From Albula goreensis (taxonomy: Eukaryota > Chordata > Actinopteri > Albuliformes > Albulidae): 64,000 bases of DNA. How positions within the stretch are numbered: the first letter of the stretch is position 1; each line of letters starts with the position of its first letter. A program made the position numbers and the translations under genes. The notes beneath the pieces were generated by a model, which was given only the letters and a program-made list of their open reading frames with translations, had not been told where the DNA came from and searched no databases. The stretch is taken from the NCBI GenBank assembly GCA_022829145.1, contig CM040746.1:12088184-12152183 (forward strand), written 5' to 3'. Positions 17,001 through 53,305 of the stretch are shown here, piece by piece.

Positions 17001-20000
17001 TAGAACACAGAAACTTGTTACTTTCCTTGTCACTTGTGATTAGAGGATAAAATAGAAGTATCAGATATTTCAGTGGTTTAAAGATGTCTGCACCACCCGT
17101 CAGTTGTGGATTTCATGATTTTATAATGAAAAAGCTTAATCATACTAATGCATAAAACTATACCTATCCCTTAAATATACATTATACATACAATTTTCTA
17201 ATTAATTAATACCCCTCTTGATATTAAATAATGTTCTAATTTTTTATTTATCTGTGCAGATCTACCATTTACAGATTTTATCTAAAAATGAATATTCTAA
17301 ACAATAATGCTTAAATGTATGCATTTAGAGAATATTTGTATTTTAAAGTCATTATTCATTGCTTTTACTGTATTTGTACTATAGGCTATATTATATTTTA
17401 AAATCTTGTATAAGGTATTCCCAAAGTACGTTGGCTAGTTTCTTCTCAATTGAAAAAATACAAAACATACAAAATACATACTTTTTAGTTTCAAATAAAA
17501 CTGGATTTAAAAACGTTGCTTGAAAGAAATGGCTAAATTCACCACGACCCAACATTCTGAGAAGTTATCTCTTGATACCTCCTTGATACTACGTCTGCTT
17601 GTTAACATTGCTGGTATAACTTTACATTTACGTACACAAGAAATTAGACTTATCCAAAATGCCAATGGTTCCTGACAAAGCGAACAGATTCAGATGCACC
17701 AACAAAGGAAACAAAAAAATGGCTTTACACATTGTACATAAATGAACTTAACATGACATGACAAAAAAAACATACAGACTTGGTCTAACCAAAATGTATA
17801 CTGTGGCACACTATGTTTGTTTATGTAAAAGCACAGTGACGGAGGAACGTCACAGACATGTCTCTCTGTCAAAGCCCTTCACCATGTCTGTCCTCCTTTC
17901 CTGTCTTCTTATGATGCTATTGGGAAAACTGTAACAAAAGAAAGAAATTATGAATTAGTCTAAGAACCCAATCAAAAATCTTGGGCAAACAGGACGTATA
18001 CCTTTTAAATGTCCAACCACGGGAGTCCTCATCTATCAGGATGCACCAACCATGTTTTCCAATTGGAGGTGATGTAACGCTGATAGTGGAATATAGTATA
18101 TATGTGTAGCCTCCTCTAGCAAAACTTGTGAGCCAGACAGTTAAGAGGTACATAGGGGTACACAGGGGGGAGAATGTACAGCCTGAGACAATGTCAGTGA
18201 AAGGACAGCTCTGTCTATTCACAGCAAGTAAAGGGCTGAATGCCTCTACTGAGGCCTTGCTCCACCTGCGTTGTGATTCTCTGATTGGACTGGTGGTGCC
18301 AGCCTTGTTCAGAGGTGCCTTTTGCTGACATTTCTGAGACGGACCGTGAAAGAAAAAAAAACAGCAGATGTCATGCAGAGACGGCCCCAAATCACGCTGC
18401 ACGCCCATGCACCACGCATGTTGCTGCAGAACATGCAGAACACATATGCGCTCATCCTCCCAGCTCCAGTCATGGTTTTGCATTCTCCACATAGAGAACA
18501 GATAAAGAAAAAACAGGGACACCCTGTTTGAATATTGCATAAAGAGGCATATTCACAATGCTGTTTGTCTCCCGTCTGATAAAAAGGCAGACCTATCTAA
18601 TTGTAGGATTGAAGGCTGAGATTCTGAACATTTTTGAGCCACACATAGGGTATGTGGAAGCACACCTGATAGCATTCTAGGCAAGTCAGAAATGTCAGGT
18701 TAAATTAAGGTTACTGGAAACCGCCATACAAATTCAGTCTTTATGGAAACTCTAAACCCTATTGAAATATTGCCTTACATCACGCAAAGACAAACAGCAT
18801 TTGCTTGGGCAGGTCACAATACTGAGTAAACATGGGCAATGAGGCAGCCAAATCGACAAAAGCCAAGAGGGAGCAGGGTCTTACCTTTGGGAAATCAGCT
18901 TCTAAGAGGTTAGGAAAGTGAGCTTATGGTAGAAATGGAATGAAAAATTCAGTCAAGAAATGACTTAACTGCCCTAAGAGGGGAGAGTTGCCAATCTACT
19001 GAAAGGACAAAGCAGGATTAATAAGTGCTAATTAATAAATGCTAAATGTTCAAACATTTTCATAGGTGACTGACATTCACCTTTCATATAAACAGTAAAA
19101 AAAAAATTGAAGAAAATTGTTCATAATGGAGCTACTCACCACTACTTCCAACCTGGCAGATTTTCTGGTTTTCTTTATTAATATACTAATGAGTATAATG
19201 ACAGTTTCCATATAGGTATGAGAACCAGTTCCTTCTGAACAAGAGAATCACTACATGATTCTAAGCCTACAGACACTATGGCCCATCAAGAGTTGAGTAG
19301 CCTTGGTTTGAACAGTATAAAGTATGCCTACTGCCAACTTTGGGATGCGCAGATAAAGTATTTAATTCTTTCATACATTGGGCTGAATTTATGAATTCAG
19401 CTCTGTGAGCATTCAGGGATGATCCACAATATTGCACAAAGAAAAGTAAAACACTTATGAAAAACTTGCTGGGTGAAAAACGTATAAATCTGTGTGGCTA
19501 AAATTGAGTACAGTAGATCTTCAAAGATCAGAGATACACATAGACAGATGGTTGTTTCCAGTTACGAGCAACAAACTGGCTATCGATCATCACAAGCAAG
19601 TCTCAAGCATTCAAACCGGATGCTACAATAAATCTATTTTATGAGGTAACCAGCTGCTTTCACAAAACAATTAGACATAACCAAAAAGAAAATTTAGCTA
19701 GTTAGCTACAAGAATAACCCATATATAACCACATGGGGGTAGACAAAATAATGCAAAAACCACCAATTTATGAAGGAATAAGGAGTGCAGCCACTCCTTA
19801 TTGAGCCTCTGGTGCTGATTAGAAAATTCAAGTAACTGAACTGAATATCTGAAACTTTAACAATATGTATTCTAATGTAGTGTTGATATCTTGTGGAGTT
19901 GCTGTCTGTTGTGTCCAGTGACAGCAATCAATTTATTCTCTAAGTGCTGAGTAAGACACAGTGGGCTGTAGTTGAAGGACATGAATGCAACAAGAAAATG

Positions 20001-21822: not shown

Positions 21823-21940
21823 TTAAAACCTTTTTGAGCTTGGTTCCTTTTGGGAGTTTTCTGTGCCGAGGGATTTCCAAACATTCCCAAAAGAGGTTTT
21901 GGACATTTCATCAGAGATGTTCACTGTGGAGGGGTCGTCC
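21823..21940 (-). CDS. slc4a10: slc4a10 last coding exon E23
   Basis: After TTTTCAG| it reads (K)[18 protein letters not shown] then [20 protein letters not shown] and a TAA stop. [13 protein letters not shown] is a close match to the SLC4A10 C-terminus; the final residues differ from the mammalian ending and no PDZ-type ETCL ending is seen. This exon needs phase 2 input, whereas E22 as sequenced provides phase 1; in that case translation would end after about ten other residues. Confidence 0.88.
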
Positions 21941-24900
21941 CTGAAAACAAACATGAACATAAACCCCTGAAACGGCCTCTTTACAAACCATATTTCAATC
22001 ATTTACACTATTTCATACATTTCTGAAAAGACAAACTATCTTATATATACAGGTATCCATTAAAGGTTTGGTGTTACTGATTAAAACCAGGCTGAGGGAA
22101 CACAATTTTGTCCATTCCATTCCCCTGGCTTGTCTGACCTAACACCAGTGTCTGTAGTATCAGATAAACTCACTTTGACCTAACACCAGTGTCTTTAGTA
22201 TCAGATAAACTCACTTTGACCTAACACCAGTGTCTTTAGTATCAGATAAACTCACTTTGACCTAACACCAGTGTCTTTGTATCAGATAAACTCACTTTGA
22301 CCTAACACCAGTGTCTTTAGTATCAGATAAACTCACTTTGACCTAACACCAGTGTCTTTAGTATCAGATAAACTCACTTTGACCTAACACCAGAGTCTGT
22401 AGTATCAGATAAACTCACTTTGACCTAACACCAGTGTCTTTAGTATCAGATAAACTCACTTTGACCTAACACCAGTGTCTTTAGTATCAGATAAACTCAC
22501 TTTGACCTAACACCAGTGTCTTTAGTATCAGATAAACTCACTTTGACCTAACACCAGTGTCTTTAGTATCAGATAAACTCACTTTGACCTAACACCAGAG
22601 TCTGTAATATCAGATAAACTCACTTTGACCTAACACCAGAGTCTGTAATATCAGATAAACTCACTTTGACCTAACACCAGAGTCTGTAGTATCAGATAAA
22701 CTCACTTTGACCTAACACCAGAGTCTGTAGTATCAGATAAACTCAACACCAGAGTTTGATAAACCTTTGACCTAACACCAGTGTCTGTAGTATCAGATAA
22801 ACTCACTTTGACCTAACACCAGAGTCTGTAGTATCAGATAAACTCACTTTGACCTAACACCAGTGTCTGTAGTAAACTCAGACCTAAACTCACTTTGACA
22901 GATAACTCACTTTGACCTAACACGAGTCTGTAGTATCAGATAAACTCACTTTGACCTAACACAAGTGTCTTTAATAAACTCACTTTGACCTAACACCAGA
23001 GTCTGTAGTATCAGATAAACTCACTTTGACCTAACACCAGAGTCTGTAGTATCAGATAAACTCACTTTGACCTAACACCAGAGTCTGTAGTATCAGATAA
23101 ACTCACTTTGACCTAACACCAGAGTCTGTAGTATCAGATAAACTCACTTTGACTAACACTTTGATCAGATAACACCAGAGTCTGTAATATCAGATAAACT
23201 CACTTTGACCTAACACCAGAGTCTGTAATATCAGATAAACTCACTTTGACCTATCAGAGTAAACAGATAAACTCACTTCTGTAATGTCCTTCCAGTGGAA
23301 GATAAACTCAACTTGTAATGATCCCCCAGTCCTCCTCCTCAGCCAAAATACTTTGTTCTTCCTGGAAGAGGGAAGAGAAAATAAAAAAAAACCTCCAGCA
23401 ATGGTTTAGGGGGAGTTCAAATGAAACATTCTACAGTTGTAAATATAGGTAGTCAACACAAATGTAGTTGATGTGCTAAGTACAGACAATCAGCTCACAT
23501 TCCTAGAGAAAGACAATCAGCTCACATTCCTAGAGAAAGACAATCCTAGAGAAAGACAATCAGCTCACATTCCTCTGATGTAAGTGGAAATAGTTCCATA
23601 GTTTCCCAAAAATACCTCAGCTTAGCTAAACATTAGCATACCGCATCATTCTTTTTCAGAGTCACAAAAATCTCTTTTTGTAGCCACGTCAGTGATAGGT
23701 AAGACATTTTTTTTTACTTTTCCTTTTTTTCCCACTCTGAACTGTTAAGTCCACTGCAGCAGTCTACTCCTGCCAACTCAGGAGGAGTATGCCGTGGCCA
23801 GTCATTCCTCCGACTTGTGACAACTGGTCCTCGCTTATTTCCACACTGCGGGCGTACCACCAGTCACACGCTGCCTATGTAAGGACTATGCAGTTGGCCT
23901 CGCAGATGTGGACCTCCAGCCTCTGGCCAGTAACAGTGAGGCTGGGATTCGAGCACCCAGCCTATGTTCCACCCTGTGAGCCACTTGGACCCAAAGTGTA
24001 AGCATTTGTATGCATGACCCTATGCATGCTAGGATGATATTTGTCTATTTGGATGACCCATATCTGTGTGGTAGCCTCAGGCTTGCATACGCCCTTATTT
24101 AGGCAGGTGTTTACATTTTTGGGCACAATCTGTACCTCTGCATAAATGAAATAGGATATTAGCTTTTCACAAAAGGAAATTGTTTTTAGCTAAAAGAAGG
24201 CTCACACCAAAGCTCTTGTACATATTTTGAGTTATGTCACCTGCCACCAGAGCCTCAAACAAGGTGAGAGGCTGCAAAATGTTTGAGTCTGCACTGTACT
24301 AAATGCTGAAGTAAAACCTATTTTAAAAAGTGAGTGAACAAGGGCTTTTGCCTGGTTGTCACTTTTGGAAAGGCCAGTGTGGCATCCTCTGTTCCATGTG
24401 CTTCAGAAGCCAGCTGAAGGGGCTCCAAGAGCTCTGTCACTGAAGATGTCAACTGATTGCCAATAATTTGTTCCATTTCCTTAGCCAAGAGAGTGGAGAG
24501 AGCCCCACTTCTAAGAGAGCCTTAAGCCATTAACACAGACTGACAGTTTGTAAACTCCATGGACAATTGAGACTTTCAATGAATAAGAGCAGAACTTGTA
24601 CAAAACAAAAACTGGCCCAGGAAAACTCTTCAGGGCAGACATTCATCACCCAACTGTTATATAGTTCACCCCAAAAATGAGGGTTATTCATTCATCTTCT
24701 TAGCTTGATAAACATCCTTTTACTCAGCAATGACAACCCTCTGTGGCTCCTGGTTGGAGATAATCTTGTATCTGACTGTTGTTTCCTTCATTTTTAGGTG
24801 AAGTAGCATTCTGAGATTCAAATCTAGGTGCTTCATTTGAGGTGACATAAGACATCCAGCAGCCTTCTGCTCTGTTAGCCATACCCAGGATGCATAGAGA

Positions 24901-27900
24901 AATGCTGCCACTCACACAACACACACACACACACACATACACACACACAAAATCACCGCTACATGTCACATACGTAGACAGCTGGAATATTCGGTCTCTA
25001 CAGCCAAGCTTAGATCATTCACATATGGATGGCTGTTGTCATGGCTACCCTGTTTTTTTTTCTCTCATAATAATTGAATCACTCCCTCCTCTTGCATGAA
25101 TTCTTGTCCATAGTACTTGCATAAAATTTGTCCCTATTTCATTTTTTACATAGACTTGGCTTCCTTTTTCATTTCCAGATCCCCCAATGTGTAGATGGAG
25201 TGTTATCTCTCTTATTTTTAGAACGGGTGTTAGCTGGGTGTACATGTGTGTGTGTTTGTGTGTGCATGTGTGTGTGTGCGTGCGTGCGTGTGCATGTGTA
25301 TGTCATCGACCTGCTGCCCGTGGCTCTGTTTTGGCACTGGTACCTCTTCTTCTGTGTGTGTGCGTGCATGTGTGTGTGTGTGTGTATGCGTGTGTCTGTG
25401 TGTGTGTGTGTGTGTGCGTGCGAGTGTGTATGCATGTGTGTGTGTGTATTTGTGTGTGTGCATGCGTGTGTGTATGCATGTGCGTGTGTGTATGCGTGTG
25501 TGTGCATGCGTGTGTGTATGCATGTGTGTGTCTGCGTGCGTGTGTGTGTGCGCGTACGTGTGTGTGTGTATGTGTGTGTGTGTGTGTGTGCATGCGTGTG
25601 TGTGTGTGTATGTGTGTGTGCATACGTGCGTGTGTGTATGTGTGTGTGTGTATGCATATGTGTGTGCATGCGTGCGTGTGTGTATGTGTGTGTGTGTGTG
25701 TGTGTGTGTAGTCTTCCTGCTGCCTGTGGCTCTGCTTTGGCTCTGGTACCTCTTGTTCTGCATCCTCCAGTTTCTTCTTTTTGCTCTCTGGCATGAGGTC
25801 ATCCAGCCAGCTCAGCTCTCTCTTTGTGAAGAGGAAATCGAGCAGCTTTCGAATAAACACCAGGGCCAGCACCTGAGTTAGAATGAGACAGTCACATGAT
25901 AATCAAGCAAGGCACACCTATCAATGCAGTCATTTAGAAACTTGCTTGGGTTACACAGTGTCTTTTGCCAAACGTGCATTGTTAAAATACATCCTACAGT
26001 ATGCAAAATGCATGTAAACTCTAAAAGATAAAACAAGTAGTAAGGGCCACTTCATTTAACAAGGCTTAACCATGGATTTATAAAAATAATGACAATAGAT
26101 AATCACTGAAATGAATGTTACTGACAACCTATTCAAGCTGCATTACATGCATTTCCATGTATTACAATTTTGCTGAATCATAGGGGAAGGACTACAGCCA
26201 GTTACTTGCAAGCGTTAGTTGATGCAAAGAGCAAAGACAGGAAGAGATGGAGTGCAGAAAAGAACGAAACTGAACTGACCTGAAATAACTGACCTGAAAG
26301 GGTCAAAGTTAATGGCAAATAGATCTCTAAAAATGGGTTTTCAGGTTAAATTAGGAGTTTGAGGGGTTGTGTGGAAATCTTGCAGCTGAATCGTTATTAT
26401 AAACTAAGCAGTTTGTACGCAGCACAAGTGAAGTGCCTGTACAAAATGAGGGGTGGGGCAGCTCACCATCATGGGGAAGACAATGGCCGCCCTGGAGGTC
26501 TTGATTACCCATAGCAGAACCAGGCAGCTGAGCTGGATGACGGTGAAGAGGTGGACCTTCCTCAGGGGAACGTGCCGCAGGTAGATGAAATCAGGCTGGT
26601 GCTTGGCTGGCATGCCAAACAGCTTCAGACGGTCAAAGAACTGGAGGACGACAGCCGCAATAAAACACTAATGCTGTGGAAGACTACAACAAATCATGCT
26701 GTAAAACACAGATACCAATTATGCAACAAGGGAAAATTCAAAACTGATTAGCATTGTCTTGATGGGTGAAAATGCACCACAAGGCCCTGATTTTGGGTCC
26801 TGAGAGGGGACCCTTTACCTGTATCCCCCTGAGTGACGATGCGCCCATGTAAAGGAACACTCCATATAGGACAGGCATGGGGATGAACTACAGAGACACC
26901 AAAAGAGAAGGGTCAGTAATACCCATTTCACACATTAATGAAACACAGAGGGGCTTGTAAATATCATTTTATTGAGTTCTTAAGAATCTCATAAAGACAC
27001 TCAAACTTATGTGCCAATACTTCCCCTGGAACCAACTGTAGTGTTTAATGAGATGCTGTAGATTAATGTAATAACTATTTTTATCGGTTGTGGATTGGTA
27101 TGGTCTCATCCTCACTTATTGTGAGCACTTCTCTGAGTTACTTTGGAAAAGAGCGTCTGCTAAAAGCCTCAATGTAAATGTAAATCTTACCCAAAATTTC
27201 CCTTCTCTTACCTTAATGACAAAGTATGAAGTGGTTTGTTATAAGACTTCACAAAAAAATCACAGCACTATAAAAAATCTCTGACAAGGTTGGGTTTTAA
27301 TGGTGTTTGGTCTGATACAGACAATTTTTAATTATTTGTAGAAAATGCTTTCCTGTTTTAAACTGGTAATTACGTGATAGTGAAGCAGACGTGAGTCAAA
27401 TGTTTCTGAAATACTTCAAATTCTTTACATGCTGTTAAGAGTTGGGAAACATCATTGCAGATCCCTGGGAATAGTCTACCAAATGTGCTTAACCAAACAC
27501 ACAAATTTAAGAAAGAAGACTGAATAACAGAGAAAATGAATGCTCTTTTCAAAAATTGTTGCTAATATAAAAAATGTACAAGTGTTTAAAAGATTTAAAT
27601 AATTTATTAGTATTTGATCCTGGCTGTTGAGAAGGACCATGAGATCAGTGGGCATACATTCACTGTGAGGCAAGAGAAGTGGTTCCACAAGGTTTTGTGG
27701 GATGGGCCCGGCTGTCTGACCTTGAGCACAGAGGTCATGAAGACGGAGCAGCCCATGAGCAGGAAGATCATGAGGCCGGTGAAGCGCTGCTCTCGGATCC
27801 CCAGGAACTTCGGCTGCTCGCCGGGGGCCGAGCACTCCGACTCCAGCTTCAGGCTGTTGACGTGGGAGATGGAGAGCACGGTGGCGGCCACGAACCAGGG

Positions 27901-30900
27901 GAGCCCCATCACCGAGCACACGCCCAGCATCACCCCCACCACGAAGAGGTCCAGGTGGTACCCACAGCCTTTCTGCATGGACAACCAGACAACCACCAAA
28001 TCAGAATGGGAACTTGCTTTTGCAGCTCACTGAAAAGTCATTAGTGTACTAAATATCAATCTCAACTTGACATGCTTCACAAAGAGCTTGAAAGTACTTC
28101 ACAAATATTTTTGCTAATTTTTATTCACATATTTGCTGATTTTGTCAAGTTTCAATGTCCACTAAGCCAAGATTATAGTCCACTGCAATATTATTTGCAA
28201 ATTTAAAAACTAAATACTACACCCTTAACCACAACACATGTTAGATGTGATTTGATACAACAAAGAAATTTGTGAGTCACCAAGACAACTACAGTAGCCC
28301 CCTGTATCTGCAGTTTTAGCAACCAAGGTTTACCGATCCAAAAAAAAGTGGAAAAATCCAAAAATAAACTGTTCATAAGTTTTCCCTTTGACCCCATATC
28401 CACACTTCCCTGCAGAACTCTCATCCAGTCTGCCTCTAGCGTTCTCACTGATAGCATTAGTTGCCACATTATCACAATGTCTGTGTCATTGTTCCTTTGT
28501 CCTTTGAGGTGTATAAAAAGCATGATTTTCATTGCTCCCTCATCCCTTGATACATAATACGTTTTCATTGTTCTATCGTCTCTTGAGTATTAGGCTGAAA
28601 TGTCAGAATCCCTTTCATTCAAGAGAGTGAGAGAGAGAGAGAGAGTACAGTACAATGTACTTTATTATTACTGTATTTAATATTTGTAATGTCTTGCTGC
28701 ATGTAATTTATCAATTAAACTTTACCATATGTATGTACAGTATGTACACGAAAATCACGTTCTTCATGGGGTCAGCAGATGGTTCACTATTATCTGCGGT
28801 TTTCGACCATCCACAGTAGGTCTTGGAACGTATCACCCATGTGTAGTTCACTATTAGAGCTACTTAGAGTGGGAGAATGAAGCACCATATATTAAGCTGA
28901 TTTTCTGTTACAGTTCCTGACCTGATTTCTCTCGTGGGCATGTAATTAATAAGAGGGCCTATTTTCCACACCTTGAGCTTGTGCTCCTTCCTGTTGATGA
29001 TGACAGCAGTGATCTGCTGGTCCATAAAGATGAGGATGGTGCAGAGCAGGGCGGGGATGACCGTCACGACCGTGGTCCACCATGGGTTCGGTCCCAAAGG
29101 GTTGATCAACCAACCACGGTCATCTCTGGTCGGCTATGGGAGGTCAAGACATTTACAAACTGCAAACAGAACGGGCTCCTGGTACTGCAGACCCCTTTTG
29201 TAAACAGTGAGTCAATTTCAACAGAGCCAAGTACCAAGAAAAATGTGCTTCTTGTAAAATCAGCAGTGTGACATTCTTGTGATTGCAAAAGGCAGCCGAT
29301 TAGCCTGCTGTTGTCAGCTCACCTTGAACTTACTGGGAACCTGGAGCTTTGGAGATGGGACTCCCAAGGCGTAGTCAACGAGGACCATGGTGAGGATGGT
29401 GATGAAGACAGCAAAATCACTGATAATGGATCTCACCTGAGGAGCAAATGATTGAATTCTAAAATATTATAACGTGGACCCTCTCCACTCTTCTCTATCA
29501 GGACTGACAGGCTGTGGATAACTACAAATAAAAACTGCATCAAATTAAAATGCAATTATGATTCAGCATGCATGCACGCACACACACACACAATGGGACC
29601 TTAAAATTACCTTCACATTCCCTGAATTAATACAGTAATCATTTCAAAGTTAACCCCAGGGAAACTTAATGTTTTTTAAAAGCTGATCTACACTTGTGGT
29701 AGCTCCAGTTAAACATTCTTGAGTTCCTTTAAGTTCCACCCTTGGGGACATTTAGCTTCAGTCATGCAATTCTAAATAACCATTAATACAGCATAGGACA
29801 ATGACTTTCCCAAGCTCTTCCCAAAGTTAACACTAGAGGGCGCCAAAAGGCTATGAAATTCCAACAGAACAGGAAGAGAAGTCTGACTTGCTTTAGTGGG
29901 GAAGTAGCGGCTCGTCTTGAATTCCTTGAGGAAAGAAGACATGGCGACAGTGGAGAAGAAGAGTACAACGGACCAGAAGAGGACATCAGGAATGTACGGA
30001 CCATGAGGGCCGCAGGCGCTTCCCACGAATTCCCCTCGTTTCTTGATGCAATCCTGAAACAGCAAAGCAACAAAGGGAACATCACAGCCTTGTTTCTGCC
30101 ACAAGGACTGACAGAAAGTGTGATCAGTGGGTGTAACAGTTCACTGGCACAGATTCAGTCTGACTGCAATGTACCTTTTTCCTGTCCTCTGACTGATATT
30201 TTCACTGCTCCCCTTTTACCTGTTTGTTTATCAAAAAGGATTACTGTTGTGCATTTTAATGGGAAAAAACTAATGATGGTACAGAATTTCCAGAAATAAC
30301 TGTAACCCCTGCCTAAATTCATAACTCAGTGGCAAATATGGTCAGTTTGACAATATGAATATTAATTAATTAAATTCCATATGATTAATAAAATGTAATA
30401 TATATATTCAAATGTTAAATCATTGCTGAACACCCACAAAATAAATGTGTAAAATGTTTTTCAATTCTGAATATTTTTTCCCTTGCAGATATTTCTTGCC
30501 TTGAGATGAACAAGCCATTGGGTGAGCAACACATTTATACATTCATATAAATGAACAACAGCCCTGATTGTTTGACAGTATTGATTTGCCCAACCCCTCT
30601 GTCCCTGAAAGCATTAAAGGCGTTCTGAAAACACCCCATGCAATGCTTTATAGAGTGGCAAAGTGGGTCACATGAGCGGACCCAGGAAATGGGATTTCCT
30701 GTTCTTTTTACCATAGGTGTTTACAAAACCTTAATTTTTAAGCAAAGTATTTGTGGGCAAACCTTGAGGCTATCATTTCACTAAATACATCGGTCCTTTA
30801 TATCAATTCATGCTACCTGTTTGGTAAATTCTTTTGGCTGGGTATGACTTCAGGGATATTCAAATGTGGCCCACTTGTGACATTGCAACTGGATACAACT

Positions 30901-50594: not shown

Positions 50595-53305
50595 AATGTG
50601 TACACCAACAGGAAAGAAGAGAAAGAGAGACAGAGACCAGGACACTGGAAAGAAAGACATGGACAATGCAGTGTACCGTGATACAGAGTACAATGAGCCA
50701 TTAGACTGTGAGGGGCAGACAGGAAGTAGAACATCGGTCTCTCTGGAATCAGGAATCTTAATAGAGGGAAGAGGATAAAATATGTGTGTAACACCCCCAA
50801 AATGCAACCCTGCACACAAATATACACCAAATCCAGAGGGTACAAATAATTCCATACTACACAATCCCAGATAGATGTAATGTCTTTCATACAAAAATGC
50901 AAATAAGACTTGTTGATAAAAAATTCAAATCTGATGTGTGAACATCAATCCTACTTTGCTCTGAAACCTTAGCTACTGTTTGTCAAACTCTTGCCTGACA
51001 CGCTGGCAACACAAAGAATAAATTATGCTGGAAAGAAAATCACTGTTCACACCTACAGTAAAAACAGTCTCCTTCAACCAACTGCTTTCTTTCCTCTTTG
51101 ATTTTGTGAGTTTCAATAAGAAAAGCAGCAGAGTGGATATTTAGCGGATAGGATTGCAACCAGAGGGATGAAGGTAACAAGGATTGGTAGTTGCTGGTAC
51201 AATTATACTTACATCTAATCACTCGATTTACTGTCAAGAAGCATGACTGGAACTATCTACACAGGTTTTCCAGGAAAAGGGCCTAAGCTAAGCAAATTAA
51301 CTACGATAAGGAGGCACACGAAGGCACCTGTAAACAGGGACACTAAAGTACTGCTGGGAATGAGAAAAGTGTAAGATTACTGTAATCAAGAGTGCAATAA
51401 CATACAATACTCCTGCAAATGTGGGTACAAACAAGTAAACTACTACCATAAACAGTGGCACAGGACAGAACAATACTCCTGTAAATATTGGCAGTGTAAG
51501 GGACAATTCTCCTGTAAAGTGGGACACAAGATGGAACAATAGTCCTGTAAACTGGGATACAGGATGGAAAAATGCTCCAATAAACAGGGGCACAGGAAGC
51601 TACAATACTCCTTTAAACAGTGGCACAGGAAGGAACAATACTCCTGTAAACTGGAACATCGAATGGAAAAATACTCCTGTAAACTCAGACTGTGGAATGG
51701 TGTCAGAAAAGCTAACCATTTTTGTCCATGGAGTGGGGCTCTGACTGTTTCTTGCCGATGTCAGCGAAGGAGCGGACGATGGGAATCCGGTTGGCCAGTT
51801 TTTTCTGGTTCTGGTGGTGGTGCTGCTTGAGCAGGGCCTCTCGGATCTTCTTTCGCACATCCTCACTCAACTGACCGCAAGACTCATGCTGGTCTAAAAT
51901 CATATCTGAGGACAAGAGCACCAACCAGTGTTTCAGATAACAGGCAACACAATTAGTTGTACGTACACAGTCCACCCATGCCATAACTTATATATGCATA
52001 AAATAATGCAAGAAAAAGAAGGAAAACAGAAAACAATATACCAACTAAGAAAATGAGGAGCAGTGTATTCTCAAAGTTAAATGAAAATTTGTGAGGTAAT
52101 GCACCAGGGTGGAGTCACATTTATAAATGGTTTAGCTTTTTTTGAAATCTATTTTTTTCTGTTAGCATGCATCCATAAACATATCTGGGTGATTTTATTA
52201 TTAGCAAAAATAAAAAATAAATAGCAAAGCAAAAAATAAAAAAACTGACTGAATCACTGCATTTAGGTGAAAACATGTAATGACAGCTATAACTCATAAA
52301 ACATACAAATCATTAATGAAAATACAGGATTATGGGTAGTTCCAATAAAATAACAGTGAGATAAATGTGTAGAGAAAGAGCAGAAGCCAAAGGCATTCAC
52401 TGTATGTGCCATTGTTAATGTCTTTTAATCTGAATTAGGGAATGAACTGCAAGAAAAAATGTTGCGCTGGCAGAGTGATCTATGTGGGTCACAGCTGATT
52501 TAATGAGAAGACTGACCCTTCCTCCTTCATCATGTCATTCCATGAATGCTGAAAATATCATTTAGCCATACCTTTTATCTGATACATTATTTAAGCGCAT
52601 CTGCAATGTTCTGAGAAAGATGAAGGGTTAATGAGGCTCACGGCACACACCGATATTCAGCTGATATTCACTAAGCCATCTGAATGTATAATAAAATGGA
52701 CAGCAAATTAATCACAATTTCTAAGCAAGCTTTGTTCCTTTTTGGGAAAAAGGGCAGTCACCAAATGTGCATTAGTATGAGCCTTTTCATATGAATTATA
52801 AATCTGTATTTAAACATATTCCAGTTGTGGAACAATGGAGACCGGATGCAGATCGGCTTAAAATGCTCTTGTTTATCTATGTAATGGATAGACCAGCATG
52901 ATTTCTGTTCCAGAGCAAATATAAGTATGAGCTCTTCAGAAGTTAATTTTTCTCAGTTAGCCAGCACTTCTTCTGACTCAGGTGTGTGCTACTCTCTCAA
53001 GGCTAAAAATGAAAAATGTCTTTTCTGAGTCTCTGAGTGGTTGCTGTGGAGCTCTGCTTTGGCTGGGCTGAAGGGCACAGCCTTTTCCTTGAGCACGTCT
53101 TCCACTCAGACACACTTACGGTACGGGTCAAGAGACGCTTCACTCTCTGACACACTGCCACCAAAGCACAAAACAAATGTATAAAGTGAGATGTGTATTC
53201 CAAACCTTTCCAAAGAAAAACCACAACCCACTCCCGCACTATTCCACTCAATATTTCTTACTTAGTACTTTTAAGAAATTACACAAATTGGTTTATTTTG
53301 TATTA

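Follow-up and report, generated by a model that had tools for sequence, protein, structure and literature searches.

The window, the whole stretch of 64 kb that was analysed, carries on its minus strand the exons of SLC4A10 (NCBE/NBCn2). A hand-joined query of these exons gave 9mix as the top PDB match (1215 bits vs. 1149 bits for 9ovr), with a longest aligned stretch of 601 chain residues and a tail match of E 3.4e-30. The best match and the conserved tail, whose last exon ends in DRETCL, place the gene in SLC4A10. A second collinear SLC4A10 copy is present on contig C5 of the same genome. Comparisons of 18 exon pairs by codon showed identities of 78.9-88.5% for 17 pairs and 96.9% for one, and one further pair aligns at 74%. 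The genome is probably that of a teleost, and the two copies are taken as presumed products of the teleost genome duplication. The most similar pair involves the exon at 27715-27975, which differs from its C5 counterpart by 6 silent and 1 replacement codon differences and looks like the result of a recent gene conversion between the two copies. A GC donor (GCAAGT / GCAAGC) at window position 29884 is found in both copies. At 8684517-8684544 (L023) a separate 13-bp tandem duplication involves the exon-22 donor of the C5 copy, with CAGTACAAGTAAG occurring twice, 15 bases apart. The features around exon 22 and in the downstream tail are as follows.

25750-25872, minus strand: exon 21, ending in phase 0 (PDB 9mix alignment, HSP to the C5 copy and splice sites; last base 25750, start counted from its acceptor AG)
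23484-23561, minus strand: short tandem repeat in intron 21 with the acceptor-like word TGATTGTCTTTCTCTAG (sequence and TRF)
23277-23361, minus strand: exon 22, homologous extent of 85 nt (homology to 9mix and the C5 copy)
23300-23330, minus strand: copy 1 of the junction word, within exon 22, containing GTTGAG at 23312 (shuffles of copy 1 vs. copy 2)
23308-23310, minus strand: in-frame TGA in exon 22, the one stop inside its translation
23264-23296, minus strand: copy 2, the exon end plus the donor GTGAGTTTATCTG at 23276, homologous exon/intron junction (homology to C5)
22133-23276, minus strand: 41-bp minisatellite with 27 GTGAGT donor words including that at 23276
23204-23250, minus strand: hypothetical exon, a 47-nt array stretch that as a substitute for exon 22 would preserve the frame (best of 227 pairs)
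21830-21940, minus strand: exon 23, entered in phase 2 (homology and splice signals; end counted)
18885-18901, minus strand: 17-nt micro-exon after exon 23 (splice signals; kept in C5 with the upstream intron)
17850-17928, minus strand: last coding exon, ending in DRETCL and a stop (start counted from the sequence)

The minisatellite covers 22133-23276 on the gene strand with a period of mostly 41 bp. TRF called 22135-23159 (25.3 copies, score 1202), with more overlapping rows reaching 23330, which confirms the 41-bp array of the preliminary description. The junction word CATTACAAGTTGAGTTTATCT and its near copy CATTACAGAAGTGAGTTTATCTG, 36 bases on, were found on the minus strand where that description had placed them; the about 28 further units that it counted are nearer 26 after the near copy. 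Within 22050-23361 there are 27 GTGAG(T) words, 24 of them exact GTGAGTTTATC, and two GTTGAG words, one in exon 22 (23312) and one in the array (22747). The exact 11-mer GTGAGTTTATC occurs 24 times on the gene strand of the whole 64-kb window, identical to the 24 of the array. The 22-mer AAAGTGAGTTTATCTGATACTA has 18 matches in the 932-Mb genome, every one in the array, and its backward control has 0. Cutting the array at GTGAGTTTATCTGATA yields 22 segments, 17 of which are one of three exact 41-mers (7, 7 and 3 copies), suggesting that the array spread recently. Folding of the RNA over 532 nt, beginning in exon 22 and running into the array, gave no signal (z -0.63). About 120 bases upstream of exon 22, the short repeat of intron 21 (23484-23561) has a 27-bp unit that combines TGATTGTCTTTCTCTAG with a GTGAGC donor-like word.

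Homology to human SLC4A10 (9mix) and to the C5 copy places the end of exon 22 at 23277 (...LPLEGHYR). The C5 exon 22 is 65 nt long (counted), reads ...VQVPLEGQY-K-DDPS and ends with AA before GTAAGT in phase 2, with exon 23 joined in frame. The exon ends of the two copies are identical at 18 of 22 bases, and the window frame runs to A/GTGAGT with the donor at 23276. By our own count, the window exon is 20 nt longer than that of C5, through an 18-nt in-frame stretch with the TGA and 2 nt before the donor that change the phase from 2 to 1 relative to C5. The score of the alignment between copies 1 and 2 was reached by 0 of 2000 dinucleotide shuffles, and that of the exon-side part alone by 2.8% of 5000 shuffles; judged by these alignments, the two copies are homologous. 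Thus the preliminary description, which had exon 22 end at 23312, took for the boundary a GTTGAG that lies inside the exon, in a degenerate second junction copy.

Donors were scored with a scoring matrix against 40 others picked by eye in both copies of the gene, from 56250 downstream and except for the exon ends near 51703 and 26807. On this matrix GTTGAG 23312 scores -1.94, lower than all 40 other donors, and homology and score together rule it out as the authentic exon 22 donor. The donor at 23276 scores 8.05, the 26 other GTGAGT words of the array 8.26 each and the C5 exon 22 donor 8.94, compared with a median of 8.16 for the 40 gene donors. The array donors had been described as stronger than the authentic site. 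They do exceed GTTGAG, but GTTGAG is not the authentic donor and the array donors are ordinary for this gene. The exon 23 donor is weak in the window (-1.11 vs. 8.16 in C5, same matrix).

Other donor-bearing arrays were sought as three occurrences of AGGTRAGT spaced 12-42 bases apart, which gave 653+898 matches genome-wide vs. 521+464 for the backward word, these counts being matches rather than arrays. Counted singly, however, the word is less frequent than the backward one (64,899 vs. 107,890). The listed stretch of contig C1 (to 69.92 Mb) holds 13 donor-word arrays and 9 backward-word arrays, 2 of the 9 shared. Five of the 13 begin at coding exon ends, with homology extending to within two residues of the donor. 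They lie in DENND5A (PDB 3cwz, Rab6-interacting protein 1, E 1.8e-21; Pfam PLAT below the cut-off), harmonin (7x2e, E 1.2e-4), fucokinase (9iip, E 4.4e-9; Pfam GHMP C-terminal), an SLC6 transporter (Pfam SNF, E 2.2e-18) and dopamine receptor D4 (DRD4; 8iru, E 2.8e-4). In this order, the next unit repeats 14, 3, 10, 27 and 10 exact exon-side bases and 17, 9, 10, 29 and 9 exact intron-side bases, and four of the five arrays repeat exon bases. The DRD4 array (C1:2489277-2489684, L062) has a 25-bp unit repeating about ten last exon bases and the donor. In the SLC6-like array (C1:69727617-69727696, L069), with 27 exact exon bases and the donor, the unit is approximately a copy of the exon end. The remaining 8 of the 13 arrays showed no confirmed coding exon end; the piece read for one (L070), 92 bases before the first donor word, is repeat-like. 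C1:479672 and C1:12280064 resemble exon ends by repeat (10 and 17 exact bases), with no match in Pfam. A Pfam scan of 9 of the 13 arrays (103 frames) returned SNF, GHMP and six weak families, mostly in repetitive frames.

The complete genome-wide set of CAGGTAAGT arrays comprises 18, of which 12 are without a recognisable exon and none was seen to begin exactly at an exon end. One (L083) starts 31 nt after a likely exon end and another (L081) ~80 nt after one. Of the other four, L078 is masked, L074 and L082 have <50 bases of flank, and the L080 piece stops short of the array edge. A Pfam search with 95 of the 198 frames from these arrays returned 5 weak families. For the controls, 118 frames from both edges of 7 backward-word arrays yielded one Pfam match (fn3, E 1.9e-4), and ten control-edge frames scanned singly gave none. 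A preference of the arrays for real junctions is not significant (5 of 13 donor arrays vs. at most 1 of 7 controls), and this comparison is uneven, the donor arrays having had hand-picked PDB searches and the controls none. Real donors are estimated to form a good part of AGGTRAGT-type words anyway. For arrays at junctions a simple reason would be enough: a duplication across a junction would be tolerated because the first donor and the exon are left intact. Two further arrays, C1:124548-125220 and C1:70765727-70766028, have units with acceptor-like words (CCCCCACCTTCCCACAG; CACTTCTGTCTGTAG), and a 3' splice-site counterpart of the donor arrays may exist.

Comparison of copy 2 with the next unit, 32 bases on, showed 15 exact bases, 2 of the exon and 13 of the intron (-2 to +13). 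Upstream of -2 the unit and the exon are identical at 6 of 30 bases. Local alignment of the non-donor part of the unit with the exon end gave shuffle p values of 0.41, 0.30 and 0.07 for the three unit types, and anchored alignment of the unit gave 0.42 to 0.68. An origin of the whole unit from the exon was rejected on these values. The C5 copy has an exact tandem match of 13 bp across its exon-22 donor at a distance of 15 bases. Among the other donors of the two gene copies, with the GC-donor pair left out, 0 of 38 have a tandem match of at least 13 bases, the longest being 10. The contrast of 2 of 2 exon 22 donors with 0 of 38 others corresponds to 1 in 780 by Fisher's test (own arithmetic), for a question chosen post hoc.

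The array begins with a unit placed on the exon-22 donor, bases -2 to +13 recur in the unit after it, and five arrays on C1 begin at coding exon ends; growth from the junction is therefore credible, and as read from these repeats the array likely grew from the exon 22 junction. Since nothing upstream of -2 matches beyond chance, the founding segment was likely mainly intron side. The earlier proposal that the exon/intron boundary is the founding unit holds to this extent, although the boundary it used was the wrong one and the similarity on the exon side is not significant. A weakness of this explanation is that the unit has only 2 exact exon bases, compared with 10 to 27 in four of the five other exon-end arrays.

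An array born inside intron 22 could also have spread or been converted outward and overwritten the intron start, the donor then resembling the unit through replacement. The unit indeed matches 13 bases of the intron side and barely the exon side (2 bases), and 12 of the 18 CAGGTAAGT arrays begin without a recognisable exon end. However, such a replacement would have to end precisely at a donor, and copy 1 in the exon has exon-like bases (ACTGG..GGA.CATTACA), indicating that the duplication crossed the junction. We regard the intronic origin as doubtful. A coincidental position at the exon end is improbable. Minisatellites often contain strong donor words, and the genome-wide triples (1551 vs. 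985 for the backward word) indicate that such arrays are frequent; the listed part of C1 has 13 vs. 9 arrays, with 2 of the 9 also in the first list by our own count. Coincidence nevertheless leaves aside the 15-base word common to the first unit and the junction at a distance of 32 bases, and the 0 of 38 other donors with a tandem match of at least 13 bases.

The downstream tail is intact from exon 23 through the micro-exon to the exon encoding ETCL. Exon 23 differs from that of C5 by 9 silent and 4 replacement codon differences, and the last exon of C5 ends in DRETSL and a stop. NBCn2 variants are described with a C-terminal cassette of either 3 or 21 residues, the latter with a PDZ motif (PMC4464172). 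The 17-nt micro-exon brings a stop, which fits this choice, and it probably decides which of the two known forms of the C terminus is made. In the micro-exon region (18865-18955), the upstream intron is 86% identical over 94 bases between the copies, as is typical of a regulated exon. The intact tail and the mostly silent changes of exon 23 fit a very recent lesion, rescue by splicing or an assembly error. An assembly error or a rare allele, if it concerned the lesion and not the array, would account for both the TGA and the shifted phase, and exon 22 would be spliced normally in most individuals. Besides the intact tail exons, the basis of a single haplotype would allow this. However, the lesions lie in exon sequence outside the repeated units, and besides the C5 copy there is no second copy of the locus in the 208 contigs, so that we consider an artefact unlikely.

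Splicing predictions presuppose that the assembly is correct at the lesion bases. An exhaustive enumeration of single-intron GT-AG joins from exon 22 to exon 23 as assembled found 0 of 9413 in frame. Two-intron paths keep the frame in 423 of 253,960 cases, all from the weak donors 23351 or 23312. Replacing exon 22 by a different stretch preserves the frame with 227 of 9048 acceptor/donor pairs, of which the top one delimits the 47-nt stretch 23250-23204 (acceptor 4.8, donor 8.3, vs. 9.9 for the exon-22 acceptor). A part of the array could thus act as a substitute exon or micro-exon and restore the frame to exon 23, either by this replacement or by, e.g., a 19-nt unit piece after one of the weak donors, and the acceptor of exon 23 itself scores only 5.3 on the same scale. 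However, exon 22 has a stronger acceptor than the array stretch, the 8 pairs in which acceptor and donor both reach at least 5 all lose the frame, and chance alone predicts some frame-keeping pairs. We judge such a rescue very improbable. The same holds for its coding form, in which the array stretch (e.g., the 47 nt) would be a replacement coding exon, its units encoding part of the C-terminal tail of the transporter with ETCL in frame; this is hardly to be expected.

With the donor at 23276, 142 nt would separate the TGA from the downstream end of exon 23. The usual rule for nonsense-mediated decay is 50-55 nt, so mRNA decay would be expected with this donor. In the proposed course of events, the young minisatellite would have arisen in one of the two SLC4A10 copies when sequence at the junction of exon 22 and intron 22 was duplicated in tandem. 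The founding segment would have carried the 5' splice site (-2 to +13 of the exon end 23277), and slippage or unequal exchange would have produced about 27 copies with mostly a 41-bp period. The degenerate second junction copy within exon 22 would have introduced the in-frame TGA. This order of events is the one we infer from the repeats. Splicing is then predicted to use either 23276, the strong donor closest to the exon, or a donor further into the array, with translation stopping in exon 22; most such mRNA would enter nonsense-mediated decay or give a protein without the ETCL tail. Both the splicing within the array and the decay are predictions from sequence. It appears reasonably probable that the array came from the exon-22 junction and that, in the sequence as assembled, it impairs splicing of the tail. 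The full explanation, a junction-born young minisatellite with an exon stop and predicted tail loss, is likewise fairly probable.

The mechanism as such is already known, arrays in ABCA7 and in an interferon gene being precedents. The interferon-gene minisatellite, presumably that of IFI6/6-16, reportedly offers many splice donors. In human ABCA7, a VNTR of intron 18 with a 25-bp unit adjoins the exon, and its first GT serves as the donor of exon 18; when one unit is retained, a frameshift and premature stop result, and longer alleles go with exon 19 skipping (PMC5954066). The array here likewise starts at the exon's own 5' splice site (exon end 23277, first GT 23276) and has a consensus donor in its units, the window GT being a predicted donor whose phase is 2 nt off that of C5. 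In contrast, canonical splicing at the first ABCA7 donor keeps the frame, as described there with RNA data, whereas exon 22 here holds a second junction copy and a stop. Apart from 2 exact exon bases (6 of 30 identical), the unit here lacks exon-end sequence, although this is seen in 4 of the 5 exon-end arrays on C1. The ABCA7 description does not require such bases, the array beginning with GT (PMC5954066). Human duplicated genes have variable tandem repeats at exon-intron boundaries in primate-specific segmental duplications (PMC2812944); as here, some of those described lie at such boundaries, and they have units of ~30 bp and change gene structure. In potato RdRp, an intron was gained by tandem duplication across an intron-exon boundary (PMC4974935). 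That duplication also copies splice signals across the junction, but there it makes a new intron. The copies here are 36 nt apart, which would be too short for an ordinary intron. The literature listings leave this fish locus unnamed. New in this case are the stop-bearing copy of the junction within the exon, the availability of a reference copy from the same genome, and an indication that a fish genome may contain such arrays in some number.

With the C5 copy serving as the reference, the locus illustrates how duplicating an exon end in tandem can multiply donors and at the same time damage the exon. The small survey suggests that junction-born minisatellites are not rare in this genome (5 of the 13 donor arrays read on C1), and gene models and RNA maps at such exons should therefore be checked. 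If one of the two SLC4A10 copies has lost the tail, this would be a concrete case of duplicate-gene divergence.
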